A stretch of DNA of 38,032 nt. Origin: Terriglobia bacterium. GTDB taxonomy: Bacteria; Acidobacteriota; Terriglobia; Bryobacterales; Bryobacteraceae. Position numbers and translations under genes: made by a program. The notes under the pieces are model-generated. The model ran no database searches. It had not been told where the DNA came from and saw nothing but the letters and a program-made list of their open reading frames with translations. Shown here one piece after another: positions 1 to 5,916 of the stretch (positions are counted from its first letter, which is position 1; every line of letters begins with the position of its first letter). The stretch spans positions 1 through 38,032 of the forward strand of contig JAFAWA010000482.1 of the NCBI GenBank assembly GCA_019242155.1, read 5' to 3'.

Positions 1-376
1 TGTCCCTGATCTCCGGAATCATTACCACCAGGGAAATCAGGGTCGAAACCGCGAACCCGCCATACTGGAGCCATCGCCCGAACGTAGCCAAACCTTTGTG
101 GCGCGCCAAAATCAGGCTGTACAATTCCAGCACCACCCATACCGAGAGAAACCATGTGACCGGCTGGGCAAGCGTCCAGAACCACAGGTATATCCGCCCG
201 CTAAAGTGATGCTCGAAGATCGGATTTAACCAGGAGTAGAGCGAGGTAAATAATAAGAATGCCAACAGTCCGCGGTAGGAGACCGCGAGGCCGCTGCGCC
301 ATAACTTCACACAGCAGAGGCCGCATCCGGCGGCGATCAGATAAGAAAAGGTTGTGGCCAGCGCGGCACTCGACAT
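1..376 (-). CDS. Multi-pass membrane protein, C-terminus beyond window edge
   Basis: This reading frame has no stop before the left edge, so only about 125 N-terminal residues are visible. It begins MSSAALATTFSYLIAAG at the ATG at 374-376; an in-frame TAG lies 24 bases upstream, so no longer ATG form exists. The visible part has about four hydrophobic segments (roughly residues 4-22, 35-48, 63-86 and 103-118) with short loops such as SWLNPIFEHHFSGRIY, which indicates an integral inner-membrane protein. I do not recognise the family. It lies 48 bases downstream of the repeat peptide gene on the same strand, so the two may be co-transcribed. It could be involved with that peptide, but nothing in the sequence proves this. 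Confidence 0.6.
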   Translation of the reverse strand, partial: MSSAALATTFSYLIAAGCGLCCVKLWRSGLAVSYRGLLAFLLFTSLYSWLNPIFEHHFSGRIYLWFWTLAQPVTWFLSVWVVLELYSLILARHKGLATFGRWLQYGGFAVSTLISLVVMIPEIRD

Positions 377-424
377 TAGCGATAGCCCAGGCTGATTCTA
401 ACATCGAGTGCCACAGAGTTGTCT

Positions 425-646
425 TCAATTTTGCACGACGCAGTCATCACACGGGAACGGCCCCATGATGATCCGGCTCGCGGTCTGCTGCACGCAGTCA
501 TCACACGGAAAGGGGCCCATGATGATCCGGCCGGCAGTCTGCTGCACGCAGTCGTCGCACGGAAACGGGCCCATGATAATCTGGTTCGCCGGCAGAGTCG
601 ATGTCAGAGCTAATGTAGTAATCGCAAGGAGTAGCAGTTTCTTCAT
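425..646 (-). CDS. Small secreted peptide with three 18-residue CDDC repeats
   Basis: This is a 73-residue peptide. The first about 20 residues (MKKLLLLAITTLALTSTLPA) are a clear Sec signal sequence, with probable cleavage after LPA. The rest is almost entirely three tandem copies of an 18-residue unit, IIMGPFPCDDCVQQTAGR, with one or two changes per copy; each copy carries a C-x2-C pair. I chose the ATG at 644-646 over the upstream GTG at 653-655 because GAAGGG lies 8 bases before that ATG and would touch the GTG. The mature peptide would hold six cysteines in three CDDC motifs, suited to metal binding, disulfides or post-translational modification. The pattern resembles multi-core precursor peptides, but no modification enzyme is visible. 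A membrane-protein gene follows it on the same strand. Confidence 0.7.
   Translation of the reverse strand: MKKLLLLAITTLALTSTLPANQIIMGPFPCDDCVQQTAGRIIMGPFPCDDCVQQTASRIIMGPFPCDDCVVQN
440..601. repeat. Three tandem 54-bp coding repeats
   Basis: Units start at 440, 494 and 548, each beginning GCAGTC(A/G)TC(A/G)CACGG on the + strand. They encode the three 18-residue peptide units. Units 1 and 2 are nearly identical and unit 3 is more diverged. Most differences keep the protein unchanged, which suggests selection on the peptide after duplication. Confidence 0.85.
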
Positions 647-798
647 GATCTTCACCCTTCTGTTAACCTTAGAACGCGCTTAGCGGATGATTTAGACTAT
701 ACGGTACTGCGGGGAATACGGCGTTTCTCTCAAGGATTTTCTAAAAACGGAACAGACCTTACGCCCCGAGCGTCCGAAAGCCGTACGGAAGCACTAAG

Positions 799-1224
799 GT
801 GACCCCGCAACGCGCATCAACAAAGAACCACTCCTGGAACCGTAGGCTGTTGGAAATTCCAACTCTTTTCGGGCGCCTGGTTTTCGTCAGTTCACTGCGC
901 GACTCTGCCGGCCTCTACCAGGAAATCGCACTCTCTACGATGCTCGGACCGAACGAGGCCCAACGCGTCCTCAGCCAGGCTCATCGCGAGATATTTTCCG
1001 AATGGCTGGCGCTTGGTCTCGCGGCTAAGAAGAGCGACCTCGAAACCTACCTGGCCGCCGCCGCCCAGGACCTCCGGGCACCGCTCTCCGCCCAATGGTT
1101 CCAGCAGCTTATACCGCTTTCGGCGCGGGCGCCGGAACAGCAGTTGTATCTGGCGGATCTGGAAGCGCTGTTGGAACGGTGGAGGGACGGATCTGGTCCC
1201 GCCGTTTCCCGTCAAGGAGCATAG
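799..1224 (+). CDS. Hypothetical cytoplasmic protein (acidobacterial type)
   Basis: This is a 141-residue soluble protein that starts with GTG at 799; GGAAG sits 7 bases upstream. It has no signal peptide or membrane segment. The middle part (LFGRLVFVSSLRDSAGLYQE, then a helical stretch with EIFSEWLALGL and DLETYL) resembles a family of short proteins that I associate with Acidobacteriota and whose function is unknown. Its 3' end overlaps the 3' end of the convergent XRE-type regulator by 116 bases, so one or both termini may be longer than the functional domain. No function can be assigned. Confidence 0.6.
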   Translation: MTPQRASTKNHSWNRRLLEIPTLFGRLVFVSSLRDSAGLYQEIALSTMLGPNEAQRVLSQAHREIFSEWLALGLAAKKSDLETYLAAAAQDLRAPLSAQWFQQLIPLSARAPEQQLYLADLEALLERWRDGSGPAVSRQGA

Positions 1225-1960
1225 CGGCCCCGATCACTTGCCCTACTACGTCAATTCCGCCCGGATACTGGAATTCGGCCGGGCTCTTCTCGGAGCTCGG
1301 GTGAAACTGCACTAGGAGACGGTTATTTTGCAACGCGCACCAGCCGCACAGAAACCCATGGCGGTGTTCTAAAAAATAGATGGGGCGATCAAATTCACTA
1401 GTCCACCCGCCGCGCGCCGGCCTGCGCCGGTTCTCATCAATTACCACCAAAGAACCAGGCCGCAGAATTGGGAACATCGACGAGTCCTTTAAACCCACCA
1501 GCCCGTAACGATAGCGCCGGTAATCGAAACCATGCAGAAAACTGAGAGGCACCTTGCCCCACTCGCGAATCAAGCGGCTCAAAAACGTGGTCTGATCGAG
1601 GTCGATCCCGGTTTCCGCCGTGATCGGAACCGCGGCGTGGCCATTAGGCGTAACCTCAAGGGTATGTGTTTCTCCCAACGGGACTTGAAGCGCCTCGCCC
1701 GCCAGCAGATGCACCGGAACCCCGTACCACCGCATCACTTCGTGCATATCAAGGTGGTACACCGCGCACAGGGTGTACAGACGGAACAGCGAGGGAAGAC
1801 ATCCCCCGGTTTCAATATCCGCCAACCGGCTCAGCGGCAAAGCAAAATCCGGATTCCCCCGGCGCGCCGCAATCTCCTGGCTGGCCTCCGCCACGTCGCG
1901 GTAAGTCAGCTTAAGCCGCTCGCGCGCGCGCCTCAGCTTTTCTCCGGCCGCCATTCCCAT
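1109..1960 (-). CDS. XRE-family transcriptional regulator with LexA/S24-like C-terminal domain
   Basis: A 283-residue protein. Residues about 5-60 form a helix-turn-helix of the Cro/C1 type (GEKLRRARERLKLTYRDVAEAS, then LSRLADIETG). The C-terminal half contains LVGLKDSSMFPILRPGSLVVIDENRR, matching the S24/LexA fold with the serine-like SSMFP motif; the general-base Lys is not obvious, so self-cleavage is doubtful. A Pro/Ala-rich tail of about 30 residues ends the protein. Starts at 1960 or 1954 are both possible, with AAGGGGAAGAG just upstream. It is divergent from ubiX, with a perfect inverted repeat between them that could be its operator. Its last 116 bases overlap the convergent hypothetical gene. 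Confidence 0.75.
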   Translation of the reverse strand: MGMAAGEKLRRARERLKLTYRDVAEASQEIAARRGNPDFALPLSRLADIETGGCLPSLFRLYTLCAVYHLDMHEVMRWYGVPVHLLAGEALQVPLGETHTLEVTPNGHAAVPITAETGIDLDQTTFLSRLIREWGKVPLSFLHGFDYRRYRYGLVGLKDSSMFPILRPGSLVVIDENRRRPARGGWTSEFDRPIYFLEHRHGFLCGWCALQNNRLLVQFHPSSEKSPAEFQYPGGIDVVGQVIGAAMLLDGKRRDQIRPSTVPTALPDPPDTTAVPAPAPKAV

Positions 1961-2053
1961 CTCTTCCCCTTACTTGCCGGCTTTATTCACCCTAAAAATA
2001 GACGCTCAGTATTGTATTCCGGTTGGGTAATTCCGGCAATAAAAAGTGTGGAC

Positions 2054-2075
2054 TTTGTTCCGAATCCGGAACAAA
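2054..2075. promoter_or_regulatory. Perfect 9-bp inverted repeat upstream of ubiX
   Basis: TTTGTTCCG-AATC-CGGAACAAA is a perfect inverted repeat with a 4-base centre, ending 25 bases before the ubiX start codon. It lies in the divergent region between the XRE-type regulator and ubiX. Two direct copies of TTCCGG (2017-2022 and 2031-2036) lie just upstream and share the half-site core. It is probably an operator, most simply for the adjacent regulator. A terminator role is unlikely because there is no T-run. Confidence 0.5.
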
Positions 2076-2100
2076 TTAAAAATATTCGAGAAATCCGCAG

Positions 2101-2661
2101 ATGACAATCGTCATTGGAATTACGGGTGCCAGCGGCGCAGTCTACGGCCTGCGTCTGCTAGAAAGACTGTGTCGCGAGCAAACCGAAATTCATTTGATTC
2201 TGACGAGGTCGGGAGAGAAAACAATCTTTCTCGAAACCGGTAAAGCCGTGGCTGAAGTTCGAAACCTGGCTAAGTATACTTATGCATTTGAGGATATCTC
2301 CTGCCGGCTGGCCAGCGGCTCTTTCCACACCGACGCCATGGTGATCGCGCCCTGTTCCATCCACACCATGTCCGCCATCGCCACCGGCATCACCTCAAAC
2401 CTGTTAGTCCGCGCCGCCGACGTCACCCTCAAAGAGCGCCGCAAGTTGATTCTCATGGTGCGCGAGAGTCCCTTTCACTTGGGCCATCTCCGGAATATGA
2501 CCGCCCTCGCCGAAATGGGCGCCATCATCGCGCCGCCGGTGCCCGGATTTTACACTAAACCCCAAACTGTGATGGACATCGTAGACCATAGCATAGACCG
2601 CATCATGGACCTGCTCGGCCTCCCCGATCCCCGCGCCCGCCGCTGGGAGGGCCCCAAGTGA
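2101..2661 (+). CDS. ubiX: Flavin prenyltransferase UbiX
   Basis: At 186 residues this matches the usual UbiX/Pad1 length. The family makes prenylated FMN, the cofactor of UbiD-type decarboxylases, from FMN and dimethylallyl phosphate. Visible motifs are the N-terminal nucleotide-binding GITGASGA (residues 6-13), the APCSIHTMSAIATGI segment, and the hallmark RRKLILMVRESPFHLGHLRNM-type region in the second half. It is cytoplasmic and has no transmembrane helix. Its stop overlaps the GTG start of pheA (GTGA, 4 bases), so the two are translationally coupled. UbiX would serve UbiD-family enzymes such as those of quinone synthesis; the organism uses the futalosine route, judging from mqnA elsewhere in the window. 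Confidence 0.9.
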   Translation: MTIVIGITGASGAVYGLRLLERLCREQTEIHLILTRSGEKTIFLETGKAVAEVRNLAKYTYAFEDISCRLASGSFHTDAMVIAPCSIHTMSAIATGITSNLLVRAADVTLKERRKLILMVRESPFHLGHLRNMTALAEMGAIIAPPVPGFYTKPQTVMDIVDHSIDRIMDLLGLPDPRARRWEGPK

Positions 2662-3515
2662 AGCCCCCCAAGGAACGGATCGCCTTCCAGGGCGAGCGCG
2701 GCGCATTCAGCGAAGAGGCAGCCCGCCGCCTGGTCGCACCGGGCGTTGCCGTCATGCCCTGCCCCCGTTTCGAAGACGTGTTTCGCAGCCTCAAGGAAGG
2801 AACCGTTACCGGCGCCGTGGTCCCCATCGAAAACAGCCTCGCCGGATCCGTGCACGAAAACTACGACCACCTCCAGAATTTCGAGCTGCCGATAACCGCC
2901 GAAACCAGCGTCCGCATCGTACACAATTTAATCGCGCCGAATCCGGTGAAATTCTCATCAATTCGCCGGGTCTTTTCCCATCCGGTCGCCCTGAATCAAT
3001 GTCTCAATTTCTTCGCCTCTAATTCTCAAATCGAACGCGTCCCTTTCTATGACACCGCCGGAAGCGTCAAAATGATCACCGAGGAGAAGCTTACCGATGC
3101 CGCAGCCATCGCCTCCGCGGTAGCCGCCGAAACCTACGGGGCAAAGATTCTCCGCAAATCGATCGAAGATGACCGCGAGAATTACACCCGCTTCTTTCTG
3201 CTCCGGCAGCCGCAATTTACTAAAAAATTTGGACCGAAGCCCGCCTCCGGCCCCGCCGAATGGAAGACATCGCTGGTGTTTACTACGCGCAACGCCCCCG
3301 GTAGCCTGTTTCGGGCGCTCGCTGCCTTCGCCCTGCGCGATCTGAACCTTACCAAAATCGAATCGCGGCCCCTCCGCGGTAAGCCTTGGGAGTATCTCTT
3401 CTACCTCGATTTTCTCGGGCATGTAGATTCCGCTCCCGCGCGTAACGCATTGAACCATTTGGCCGAACTGGCCGATTTTCTCCGTGTTCTCGGGTGCTAC
3501 CCTAAGGGCGCCTGA
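2658..3515 (+). CDS. pheA: Prephenate dehydratase with ACT domain
   Basis: A 285-residue monofunctional prephenate dehydratase, which converts prephenate to phenylpyruvate for phenylalanine synthesis. The catalytic domain opens with IAFQGERGAFSEEAA and includes VVPIENSLAGSVHENYD. It ends with the active-site TRF triplet (Thr177-Arg178-Phe179) in DDRENYTRFFLL. Residues about 203-280 are a regulatory ACT domain (TTRNAPGSLFRALAAFALRDLN) with the ESRP phenylalanine-binding motif at 235-238, so feedback inhibition by Phe is expected. No chorismate mutase domain is fused. The GTG start overlaps the ubiX stop. The lon start lies 22 bases beyond the stop, so the three genes probably form one transcript. 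Confidence 0.93.
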   Translation: MKPPKERIAFQGERGAFSEEAARRLVAPGVAVMPCPRFEDVFRSLKEGTVTGAVVPIENSLAGSVHENYDHLQNFELPITAETSVRIVHNLIAPNPVKFSSIRRVFSHPVALNQCLNFFASNSQIERVPFYDTAGSVKMITEEKLTDAAAIASAVAAETYGAKILRKSIEDDRENYTRFFLLRQPQFTKKFGPKPASGPAEWKTSLVFTTRNAPGSLFRALAAFALRDLNLTKIESRPLRGKPWEYLFYLDFLGHVDSAPARNALNHLAELADFLRVLGCYPKGA

Positions 3516-3537
3516 CGGTACACTGAAGGCAGAAGTC

Positions 3538-5916
3538 ATGGATGTCCAGGAAGAACAGTTACCCTCCCCGCCGGAGCCGGTCCTAGACGAACTGGAAGAG
3601 GTTCCCGTACTGACTGTCCGCGATACGGTGCTCTTCCCCGGCGCCATGATGCCCATTACCGTGGGCCGCCCCTCTTCACTCGCCCTGGTGCAGTCCCTGG
3701 GCGAAAACCGCTCCCTGGCCGTCGTCTCCCAACTCGACGCGCACGTCGACACGCCCGGTCCCGATGACCTCTACCCAGTGGGAACACTCTGCGTCCTGCA
3801 CAAAGTAATCCGCGTCCCCCGGGAAAACCTGCTGCTCTTCTGTGAAGGCGTGTCCCGGATCCGCACCCGCGAGTACACCGCGCGCGAGCCCTTCCTCAAA
3901 GCGCGCATCGAAAAGATTCCGGATCTCGAACCCGAGCCCAGCGAGGAATTGGAAGCCCTCCGCCAGAACGTGCTGTCCCTCTTCCAGCAGATCGTGGCTG
4001 CCGCTCCCAATCTGTCTGACGACCTTGCTTCAACCGCCGTCCACATCACCGAACCCGGCCGCCTGGCAGACTGGATCTCAGGCACCCTGCCGTCCCTCAG
4101 TCCCCCGGAGCGCCAGGAGCTGCTCGCTCAACCCGACGGCAGAACCCGGCTCAACGCCGTACATCGCCACCTCACACGCGAACTCGAACTGCTTCAGTTG
4201 CGCGGCCGCATCCAATCCCAAGTGCAAGGGCAGCTCTCCCAAAGCCAGCGCGAGTTTTATCTCCGCGAACAGCTCAAAGCCATTCAAAAGGAGCTCGGCG
4301 AAGGCGACGACACCCAGCAGGATCTCGAGGACCTCCGCCAAAAAATCGAGGCCGCCGGTCTGCCCGAAGAGCCCAAAACCGAGGCCATGCGCGAATTCAA
4401 CCGTCTCTCCCGCATGTCCTCCGGCTCGCCCGAATACGGTGTTACCCGCACCTACCTGGAGTGGATGGCCGCACTCCCCTGGAGCACCTCCTCCGGCTCC
4501 AAAATCGACGTAAAGCGCGCCCGCGAGATCCTCGACGAGGATCATTACGACCTCGAAAAGGTCAAAGAGCGCATCCTCGACTATCTCGCCGTACTGCAGT
4601 TACGCCCCGTGCTGAAAGGTCCGATTCTCTGTTTCGCGGGTCCGCCCGGAGTCGGTAAGACCTCCGTCGGCCGCTCGATTGCGCGCGCCCTCGGCCGCAA
4701 ATTCGCCCGCATTTCCATGGGCGGCATGCACGACGAGGCCGAAATCCGCGGCCACCGCCGCACCTATATCGGAGCGCTCCCCGGCCAAATCATTCAGGCC
4801 CTCCGCCGCACTGGCGCCAATGACCCGGTCTTCATGCTCGACGAGGTGGACAAGCTCGGCCGCGACTTCCGCGGCGATCCCGCTTCCGCACTCCTCGAAG
4901 TCCTCGATCCCGAACAGAACTCCACGTTTCGCGATAACTACCTCGATGTCCCCTTCGACCTCTCCAAAGTCCTGTTCATCACCACCGCCAATGTGCTCGA
5001 TCCCGTGCCCGAAGCCCTGCGCGACCGCATGGAGATCATCCCGCTCGAAGGCTACACCGAACAGGAGAAAGTCATCATCGCCTTCCGTTACCTCATTCCC
5101 AGGCAGATTGAAGAGAACGGAGTCACGGCCGAGAACGGCGTCAACTTCACCGACGAAGCCGTGCGTTTTCTCATTCGCCGTTACACCCGGGAGGCGGGCG
5201 TACGCGGCCTCGAACGCGAAATCGGCAGCATCTGCCGCAAGCAGGCCCGCCGCATCGCCGAGGGCGCGAGCGGTGCCACCGAAGCAACCCCCGCGCTCAT
5301 CGAACAGGACCTCGGCGCACCCCGCTTCCGCCCCGACACCGAAGTCGCTGGCCGCACCCGGCGTCCCGGCGTCGCCGTTGGTTTAGCCTGGACGCCCACC
5401 GGCGGTGACGTGCTCTTCATCGAAGCCGGTCGTATGCCCGGCGGCAACAAGGGCCTGATTATGACCGGGCAATTAGGCCCCGTGATGCAGGAGTCCGTCC
5501 AGGCCGCCCTGACCTGGGTTCGCCACAGCGCGCTCCGTTATTCCATCGACCCGGATCTGTTCAAGAACACAGACATCCACATCCATGTGCCCGCCGGAGC
5601 CATTCCCAAAGACGGCCCCTCAGCCGGTATCACCATGGCGACCGCTCTCCTCTCCATGCTCACCGAGCGATGCGTCCGGCCACTACTGGCCATGACGGGC
5701 GAAATCACGCTCACCGGCGAAGTGTTGCCCATAGGCGGTATCAAAGAGAAGGTCCTCGCCGCCCGCCGCAGCGGCGTCCGCGAAGTAATCCTGCCCGCGG
5801 ACAACGAAGTCAACGTTCGCGAGGATCTCAAAACCGAGCAAATCTCCGGCATCGAGATCCACTACGTCAAATCCATGGACGAAGTGGCGAAACTGGCCCT
5901 CGAACCCGGCTCCTGA
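3538..5916 (+). CDS. lon: ATP-dependent protease Lon
   Basis: This is a 792-residue LonA protease. The ATG at 3538, with AAGG upstream, was chosen; a longer form from a GTG at 3484 would overlap pheA and is not needed. The order is an N-terminal substrate-binding domain (PVLTVRDTVLFPGAMMPI onward), a coiled-coil region (QSQREFYLREQLKAIQKELG), the AAA+ module and the peptidase domain. Walker A is GPPGVGKT at 368-375 and Walker B is VFMLDE at 431-436. The catalytic dyad is Ser695 in PKDGPSAG and Lys738 in GGIKEK, 43 residues apart as in E. coli Lon. It degrades misfolded and regulatory proteins in the cytoplasm. A toxin-antitoxin pair lies just downstream, a natural Lon-linked system, though the adjacency may be chance. 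Confidence 0.95.
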   Translation: MDVQEEQLPSPPEPVLDELEEVPVLTVRDTVLFPGAMMPITVGRPSSLALVQSLGENRSLAVVSQLDAHVDTPGPDDLYPVGTLCVLHKVIRVPRENLLLFCEGVSRIRTREYTAREPFLKARIEKIPDLEPEPSEELEALRQNVLSLFQQIVAAAPNLSDDLASTAVHITEPGRLADWISGTLPSLSPPERQELLAQPDGRTRLNAVHRHLTRELELLQLRGRIQSQVQGQLSQSQREFYLREQLKAIQKELGEGDDTQQDLEDLRQKIEAAGLPEEPKTEAMREFNRLSRMSSGSPEYGVTRTYLEWMAALPWSTSSGSKIDVKRAREILDEDHYDLEKVKERILDYLAVLQLRPVLKGPILCFAGPPGVGKTSVGRSIARALGRKFARISMGGMHDEAEIRGHRRTYIGALPGQIIQALRRTGANDPVFMLDEVDKLGRDFRGDPASALLEVLDPEQNSTFRDNYLDVPFDLSKVLFITTANVLDPVPEALRDRMEIIPLEGYTEQEKVIIAFRYLIPRQIEENGVTAENGVNFTDEAVRFLIRRYTREAGVRGLEREIGSICRKQARRIAEGASGATEATPALIEQDLGAPRFRPDTEVAGRTRRPGVAVGLAWTPTGGDVLFIEAGRMPGGNKGLIMTGQLGPVMQESVQAALTWVRHSALRYSIDPDLFKNTDIHIHVPAGAIPKDGPSAGITMATALLSMLTERCVRPLLAMTGEITLTGEVLPIGGIKEKVLAARRSGVREVILPADNEVNVREDLKTEQISGIEIHYVKSMDEVAKLALEPGS

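Follow-up and report, generated by a model that had tools for sequence, protein, structure and literature searches.

The window, by which we mean the whole 38,032-nt stretch of DNA that was analysed, comes from a bacterium of the family Bryobacteraceae. Near its left end lies a small gene for a putative secreted peptide with internal repeats, and the next gene on the same strand encodes a membrane protein with seven predicted transmembrane helices (7TM). As judged from homologous loci, the two belong to a cassette of five genes, so far undescribed, in soil Acidobacteria; its other members are the genes for an HTH regulator, for a soluble helical protein and for a protein with a single TM helix. 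The following features were located in the window:

1–376, minus strand: first 125 residues of the 7TM protein, the gene being cut at the contig end
425–646, minus strand: precursor peptide gene, 73 aa, signal peptide plus three units
428–472, minus strand: unit 3, IIMGPFPCDDCVVQN, 15 aa, spacer truncated
473–526, minus strand: unit 2, IIMGPFPCDDCVQQTASR, 18 aa
527–580, minus strand: unit 1, IIMGPFPCDDCVQQTAGR, 18 aa
581–646, minus strand: Sec-type signal sequence MKKLLLLAITTLALTSTLPANQ, with a predicted cleavage site; the same layout is shared by about 108 of the 126 homologous loci
696–701, minus strand: −10-like hexamer TATAGT of the putative peptide promoter, conserved as TAGTATAGTAC in relatives
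737–754, minus strand: putative operator variant TGTTCCGTTTTTAGAAAA, in the gap that separates the peptide gene from the divergent 799–1224 gene
799–1224, plus strand (opposite to the peptide): soluble all-helical protein OPP918, 141 aa
1109–1960, minus strand: cassette regulator, HTH_31 plus an S24-like C-terminal part with a conserved CGWC
2056–2073, palindromic, no strand assigned: putative operator TGTTCCGAATCCGGAACA before the regulator, 28 nt before ubiX

The peptide ORF starts with the ATG at 646, which has AGAAGG 9 nt on its 5′ side, and ends with a stop codon at 425–427; an in-frame GTG at 655 is a less likely start. The three units follow each other in coding order with a period of 54 nt, and the core IIMGPFPCDDC is unchanged across all of them. 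Pairwise Nei–Gojobori counts between these units gave pS of 0.51–0.81 and pN of 0.02–0.08, and hence the high nonsynonymous rate that the earlier note had named as evidence against its reading of a repeated secreted peptide did not occur. The ClpX zinc finger of Pfam matched weakly (21.1 bits, with a cut-off of 27), which was put down to the repeated CxxC, and no structured RNA was found in positions 1–3000 of the window.

A second version of the locus, with five units, is present on an 8.3-kb contig of the same genome bin (C117, L004), which is ∼89% identical to positions 1–3581 of the window and syntenic through pheA; the contamination of the bin is 4.99%, and C117 is probably a co-binned close relative of the window genome. 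Close relatives thus have different numbers of units (3 and 5), a comparison that the earlier note had proposed. Over the eight units together (three from the window and five from C117), the 11-residue core is identical in 8/8, with pN of 0 and pS of 0.52, while the spacers of the same units vary, with pN of 0.22, pS of 0.52 and pN/pS of 0.42. Moreover, in 15 other repeat precursors pN/pS was 0.02 in the core versus 0.41 in the spacers, the cores being defined by motif, with regular or nearly regular unit spacing and no degenerate unit seen to be skipped. These values agree with the suggestion that silent changes dominate and that selection acts on the repeated peptide, and together the signal sequence and the tandem identical cores support the anatomy of a multi-core precursor, which had also been proposed from the window alone.

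A small secreted-peptide gene was found upstream of the 7TM gene in about 108 of 126 distinct loci, a count that takes in variant and long repeat precursors as well as loci added by eye. When one detector was used throughout, a signal-bearing small ORF with P-C..C lay upstream of 95 of 122 homologous 7TM genes, and the same detector gave 0/413 for upstream regions of other genes and 2/1220 for shuffled regions. The homologues and control regions rule out a chance repeat or a mis-called ORF, and the repeat-peptide ORF pointed out previously is thus real. The gap between the peptide and 7TM genes has a median of 91 nt across loci. P-x-P-x-C-x-P-C is the prevailing core pattern in Bryobacteraceae, with ADNPLPECDPCPFVR and DMPVPQCDPCPWVR as examples, and C-x2-C is found in most cassette peptides of the family, with the core varying between genera; strain KBS 96 carries a copy of the cassette with the core VIPVPHCYPCNNGK (L058). 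The peptide is present in 1–9 internal repeats or in 1–4 tandem genes per locus, so that homologues with varying repeat numbers, whose absence was to have counted against the repeat-peptide reading, do exist. Tandem genes number 3–4 in L057, 4 in L134, and 3 in each of L079, L125 and L163; internal repeats number 3 in L059, L061, L133 and L118, 5 in L051 and 4 in L162, and the L050 precursor has nine copies of ILPIPKCYPC plus spacer. Some repeats are without cysteine (8 × FEPPIPEPGNPYPP in L171 and 4 × YPPLPNPNSPYPP in L175). Peptide copy number has thus increased repeatedly in the family, by tandem genes and by internal repeats. In the long precursors of L144, L149 and L151, two cores, IVPIPDCFPC and PPGLPKCYPIC, alternate within each unit, which suggests two peptides per precursor. 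Beyond Bryobacteraceae but within the class, a secreted peptide usually precedes the distant 7TM homologues as well; its core is different, often ADGxPxPP, and repeats occur here too (3 × in L202, 2 × in L203 and 3 × in L207).

The membrane-protein gene begins at 376, 48 nt past the peptide stop codon, and its full-length homologue was recovered on C117 (L004:4207–4986), encoding 260 aa with seven TM helices. The family is present in 199 of 237 Bryobacteraceae genomes (129 of 148 good genomes, and 68 of 76 genera), and among the relatives that bear names, all of them Bryobacteraceae/Bryobacterales, are Candidatus Sulfopaludibacter and strain KBS 96. In the class outside Bryobacteraceae, 200 of 317 good genomes carry a distant 7TM homologue at an E-value of 1e-6; at the same threshold the sampled remainder of the phylum gave no match, and no relatives were found on viral contigs. 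The AlphaFold2 model (pLDDT 89.6) has seven TM helices followed by a C-terminal amphipathic helix, and the distribution of positive charges suggests that the N-terminus is outside and the C-terminus inside. Conservation is higher in the cytoplasmic halves of the helices than in the outer halves (1.54 versus 1.16 bits, p = 5e-4), and the top conserved columns, N169, N251, W217, E84 and P163, lie in the tail or face the cytoplasm. The 7TM alignment has no invariant Cys or His ligand set, and the protein has neither an effector domain nor a kinase domain. It had been proposed that the membrane protein is an export or processing partner of the peptide; this is disfavoured, because transporter and protease families gave no match to the 7TM protein, we saw in it no conserved residues of a canonical catalytic site, and the leader of the precursor is already of the Sec type.

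Twenty-five 7TM members gave isolated weak matches and no Pfam or NCBIfam family, and neither the 7TM nor the single-TM profile found a sequence match in the PDB; nor was a GPCR sequence family recognisable in the 7TM protein in Pfam, NCBIfam or PDB sequences. The top structural neighbours of the model are GPCR-like chains, with VIA-align Z up to 13.1 over ∼190 residues and rmsd mostly of 3.4–4.8 Å. Because such Z values are reached by chance helical bundles and the best Foldseek E-value was 0.046, we speak of a GPCR-like arrangement rather than of a GPCR. Peptide and 7TM divergence correlate (rho 0.34–0.36), with Mantel p-values that are optimistic since the loci are related. The partial correlation with peptide divergence is 0.20 for the outer half of the 7TM protein and 0.23 for the inner half, and thus coevolution with the peptide specific to the outer half was rejected, and the correlation does not indicate ligand-specific coevolution.

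Neighbour clustering in the 126 loci identified three recurring partners, namely the single-TM gene after the 7TM gene (95 loci), the HTH regulator (73) and the soluble protein (70). The earlier note's pairing of peptide and membrane protein stands, although it missed the regulator at 1109–1960, the protein at 799–1224 and both operators. A second cassette in the window genome (L189) has the regulator divergent from the peptide, 7TM, single-TM and soluble protein genes, which are consecutive on one strand. In 20 sister loci of other families, the regulator is near the 7TM gene in 15, OPP918 in 16 and the single-TM gene in 12, with partner gene order and orientation different from those in Bryobacteraceae; at L194, L201 and L204 of these sister loci, regulator and OPP918 homologues are present and no peptide ORF was found. 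Nine well-flanked loci have the 7TM gene and no peptide, and at least two of the three partners are present in none of these nine compared with 50 of 61 peptide-bearing well-flanked loci (Fisher p = 2.6e-6, an optimistic value because relatedness of the loci is uncorrected). Five loci (L124, L128, L130, L147 and L173) carry the 7TM and single-TM genes but none of peptide, regulator and OPP918; at these loci the sensor half may exist on its own or have its peptide at a distance.

Among the cassette proteins only the HTH domain matched Pfam. No cassette protein reached any NCBIfam or PADLOC family, so that no model of anti-phage defence was matched, and PHROGs gave only weak matches of unknown function. 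In six aligned regulators C205, W207 and C208 are invariant. The regulator has the motif SMxPxLxPGS, in which the Ser is Phe in several members, and has no Pfam S24 match, a weak DdrO HTH match being the only one on the side of S24 repressors; no TPR domain was matched, only HTH families. For OPP918, the sequence profile found one weak match in the PDB (E 0.3), and its fold, from a fairly confident model, had no PDB match below E 0.5. Among the conserved neighbours we recognised no ABC exporter, modifying enzyme, radical SAM, YcaO or histidine kinase, and no processing protease is encoded within the cassette. In the databases and literature that were searched, no described family matching the peptide, the 7TM, the single-TM or the soluble protein was found, and the literature searched held no description of an Acidobacterial peptide signal.

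The putative operator TGTTCYGAATTCRGAACA is a palindrome that precedes the regulator in 48 of 59 loci, and in 48 of 85 loci its variant TGTTCYGAWTTYNGAAAA precedes the peptide gene, at −98 to −130 relative to that gene, two of 49 peptide-side sites being outside this range; the chance expectation of the pattern is 0.03 per region. The predicted regulator promoter has a TATAAT-like −10, and at both promoters the operator centre is mostly 42–50 bp upstream of the conserved −10. In the 5.77-Mb assembly the degenerate operator pattern occurs at seven places, four of which are the two cassette sites in two alleles, while the other three, with GC-rich centres, look like chance, and a reversed-pattern control on the same assembly gave five matches. 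Class I activators bind near −60 from the start site. Because the operator is located near this position, we infer activation rather than repression, and positive feedback. A ubiX-like gene (2101–2661) starts 28 nt past the palindromic operator, and hence ubiX may share this control.

We suggest, with a probability of about 0.55, that the cassette is an autoregulated extracellular peptide-signalling system. The product of the small gene would be a pre-propeptide that Sec exports and that is then cut down to a short peptide, in a single copy or in several. In the window this peptide would be IIMGPFPCDDC, probably with a disulfide across its CxxC once mature. Repeats of the core would raise the peptide dose, as they do in yeast alpha-factor. 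The sensor of the peptide would be the 7TM protein, the product of the next gene downstream, consistent with an N-out topology, a conserved cytoplasmic face and the conserved C-terminal amphipathic helix, and the signal would reach the HTH regulator, perhaps by way of the single-TM protein and OPP918. The regulator would then bind TGTTCYGAATTCRGAACA in front of two genes, its own and that of the peptide, in each case ∼60 bp upstream of the predicted start site, and would activate both, thus closing a feedback loop. We prefer this signalling circuit because it needs the fewest assumptions to account for invariant multi-copy cores, gene linkage and operators. That such signalling is class-wide, with Sec-secreted multi-copy pheromones and a stand-alone GPCR-like seven-helix receptor controlling a dedicated HTH regulator in Acidobacteria, is a more tentative proposal, to which we give slightly less than even odds.

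The main rival to the signalling reading is that the peptide is a bacteriocin or fratricide peptide that kills related cells, with the 7TM and/or single-TM protein conferring immunity and the HTH protein regulating production. A small secreted peptide beside a membrane protein, in tandem or repeated copies with a core that varies between genera, is what this would produce, and the gene linkage would be explained. Nevertheless we consider it unlikely, because one core cassette is present in nearly every Bryobacteraceae genome while bacteriocins are patchy, the conserved neighbours lack an exporter and a modifying enzyme, the 7TM protein is most conserved on its cytoplasmic face, and PADLOC and PHROGs point to no such function. 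Moreover, tandem identical cores are unusual for bacteriocins. It is improbable, too, that the small ORF is a SecM-like leader or arrest peptide, whose translation regulates 7TM expression or membrane insertion with no extracellular role: its signal sequence, Pro-rich C-terminus and short distance to the 7TM gene would suit such a function, but an arrest site needs neither nine internal units nor four tandem genes nor conservation of the core in every unit, and arrest would not account for the operators at the peptide promoter, nor for the regulator and the OPP918 gene that go with them. We likewise give little credence to a metal or redox function, in which C-x-P-C peptides would act in the periplasm as metal ligands or in disulfide cycling, with the 7TM protein handling them and the CGWC of the regulator sensing the same cue. 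The C-x2-C of most Bryobacteraceae peptides and the invariant C205, W207 and C208 are compatible with it, and a repeated metal-binding ligand had been one suggestion of the earlier note; however, cysteine-free Pro-rich repeat precursors fill the same slot beside the same 7TM protein in L171, L175, L202, L203 and L207, and the 7TM protein itself lacks a ligand set of Cys or His. Finally, a RiPP natural product with a core modified by enzymes encoded elsewhere is very improbable, since a Sec signal stands in place of a recognition leader and no modifying enzyme or ABC transporter is recognised nearby, although the multi-core anatomy resembles precursors of cyanobactins or of Kex2-repeat RiPPs (a fungal case, PMC7329392).

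The cassette offers a concrete candidate ligand, receptor, regulator and operator, in genes that are present in named genomes such as that of strain KBS 96. Acidobacteria are among the most abundant soil bacteria. If the receptor reading is true, the cassette would perceive a peptide by a stand-alone 7TM protein, to our knowledge a mode of signalling not known from bacteria, and the variation in repeat number would amount to a dose series made by nature. Should the peptide instead prove to be a toxin, it would still represent an unannotated, family-wide class of secreted peptide.

Several known systems share parts of this arrangement. Like Sec-dependent class II bacteriocins, the cassette has a Sec signal, a small Cys peptide and an adjacent membrane protein, but it differs from them in being near-universal and single in the family, in its multi-copy cores, in a linked HTH regulator with a dedicated operator and in a 7TM protein whose conservation is highest on the cytoplasmic side. 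Agr, ComX and ComCDE also combine a secreted peptide and a polytopic membrane partner in an autoregulated operon, whereas the cassette has no histidine kinase, AgrB, ABC peptidase transporter or double-glycine leader; no PCAT/ABC exporter was recognised in the conserved neighbourhood, and the leader is of the Sec type rather than a GG leader. The RRNPP systems (PlcR–PapR, Rgg–SHP and ComR–XIP) likewise pair the gene of a small secreted peptide with a neighbouring HTH regulator that has an operator of its own, but those regulators bind re-imported peptide via a TPR domain, while in the cassette the regulator matched no TPR domain and is linked to a 7TM protein. The closest functional analogue, by analogy of arrangement, appears to be the yeast alpha-factor precursor (MFalpha1) with its 7TM receptor Ste2, which shares a secretory signal, several identical short peptides with spacers and a 7TM partner; in the cassette precursor too, identical cores stand in tandem behind the signal sequence, and the spacers between them diverge. 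The yeast system differs in being eukaryotic, in having Kex2/Ste13 processing sites and in a genetically unlinked receptor, and the likeness is one of arrangement. The repeat number of alpha-factor also varies between relatives (PMC5850478). Hence, if the pheromone reading is true, the cassette would be a bacterial counterpart of the fungal arrangement of pheromone and 7TM receptor.
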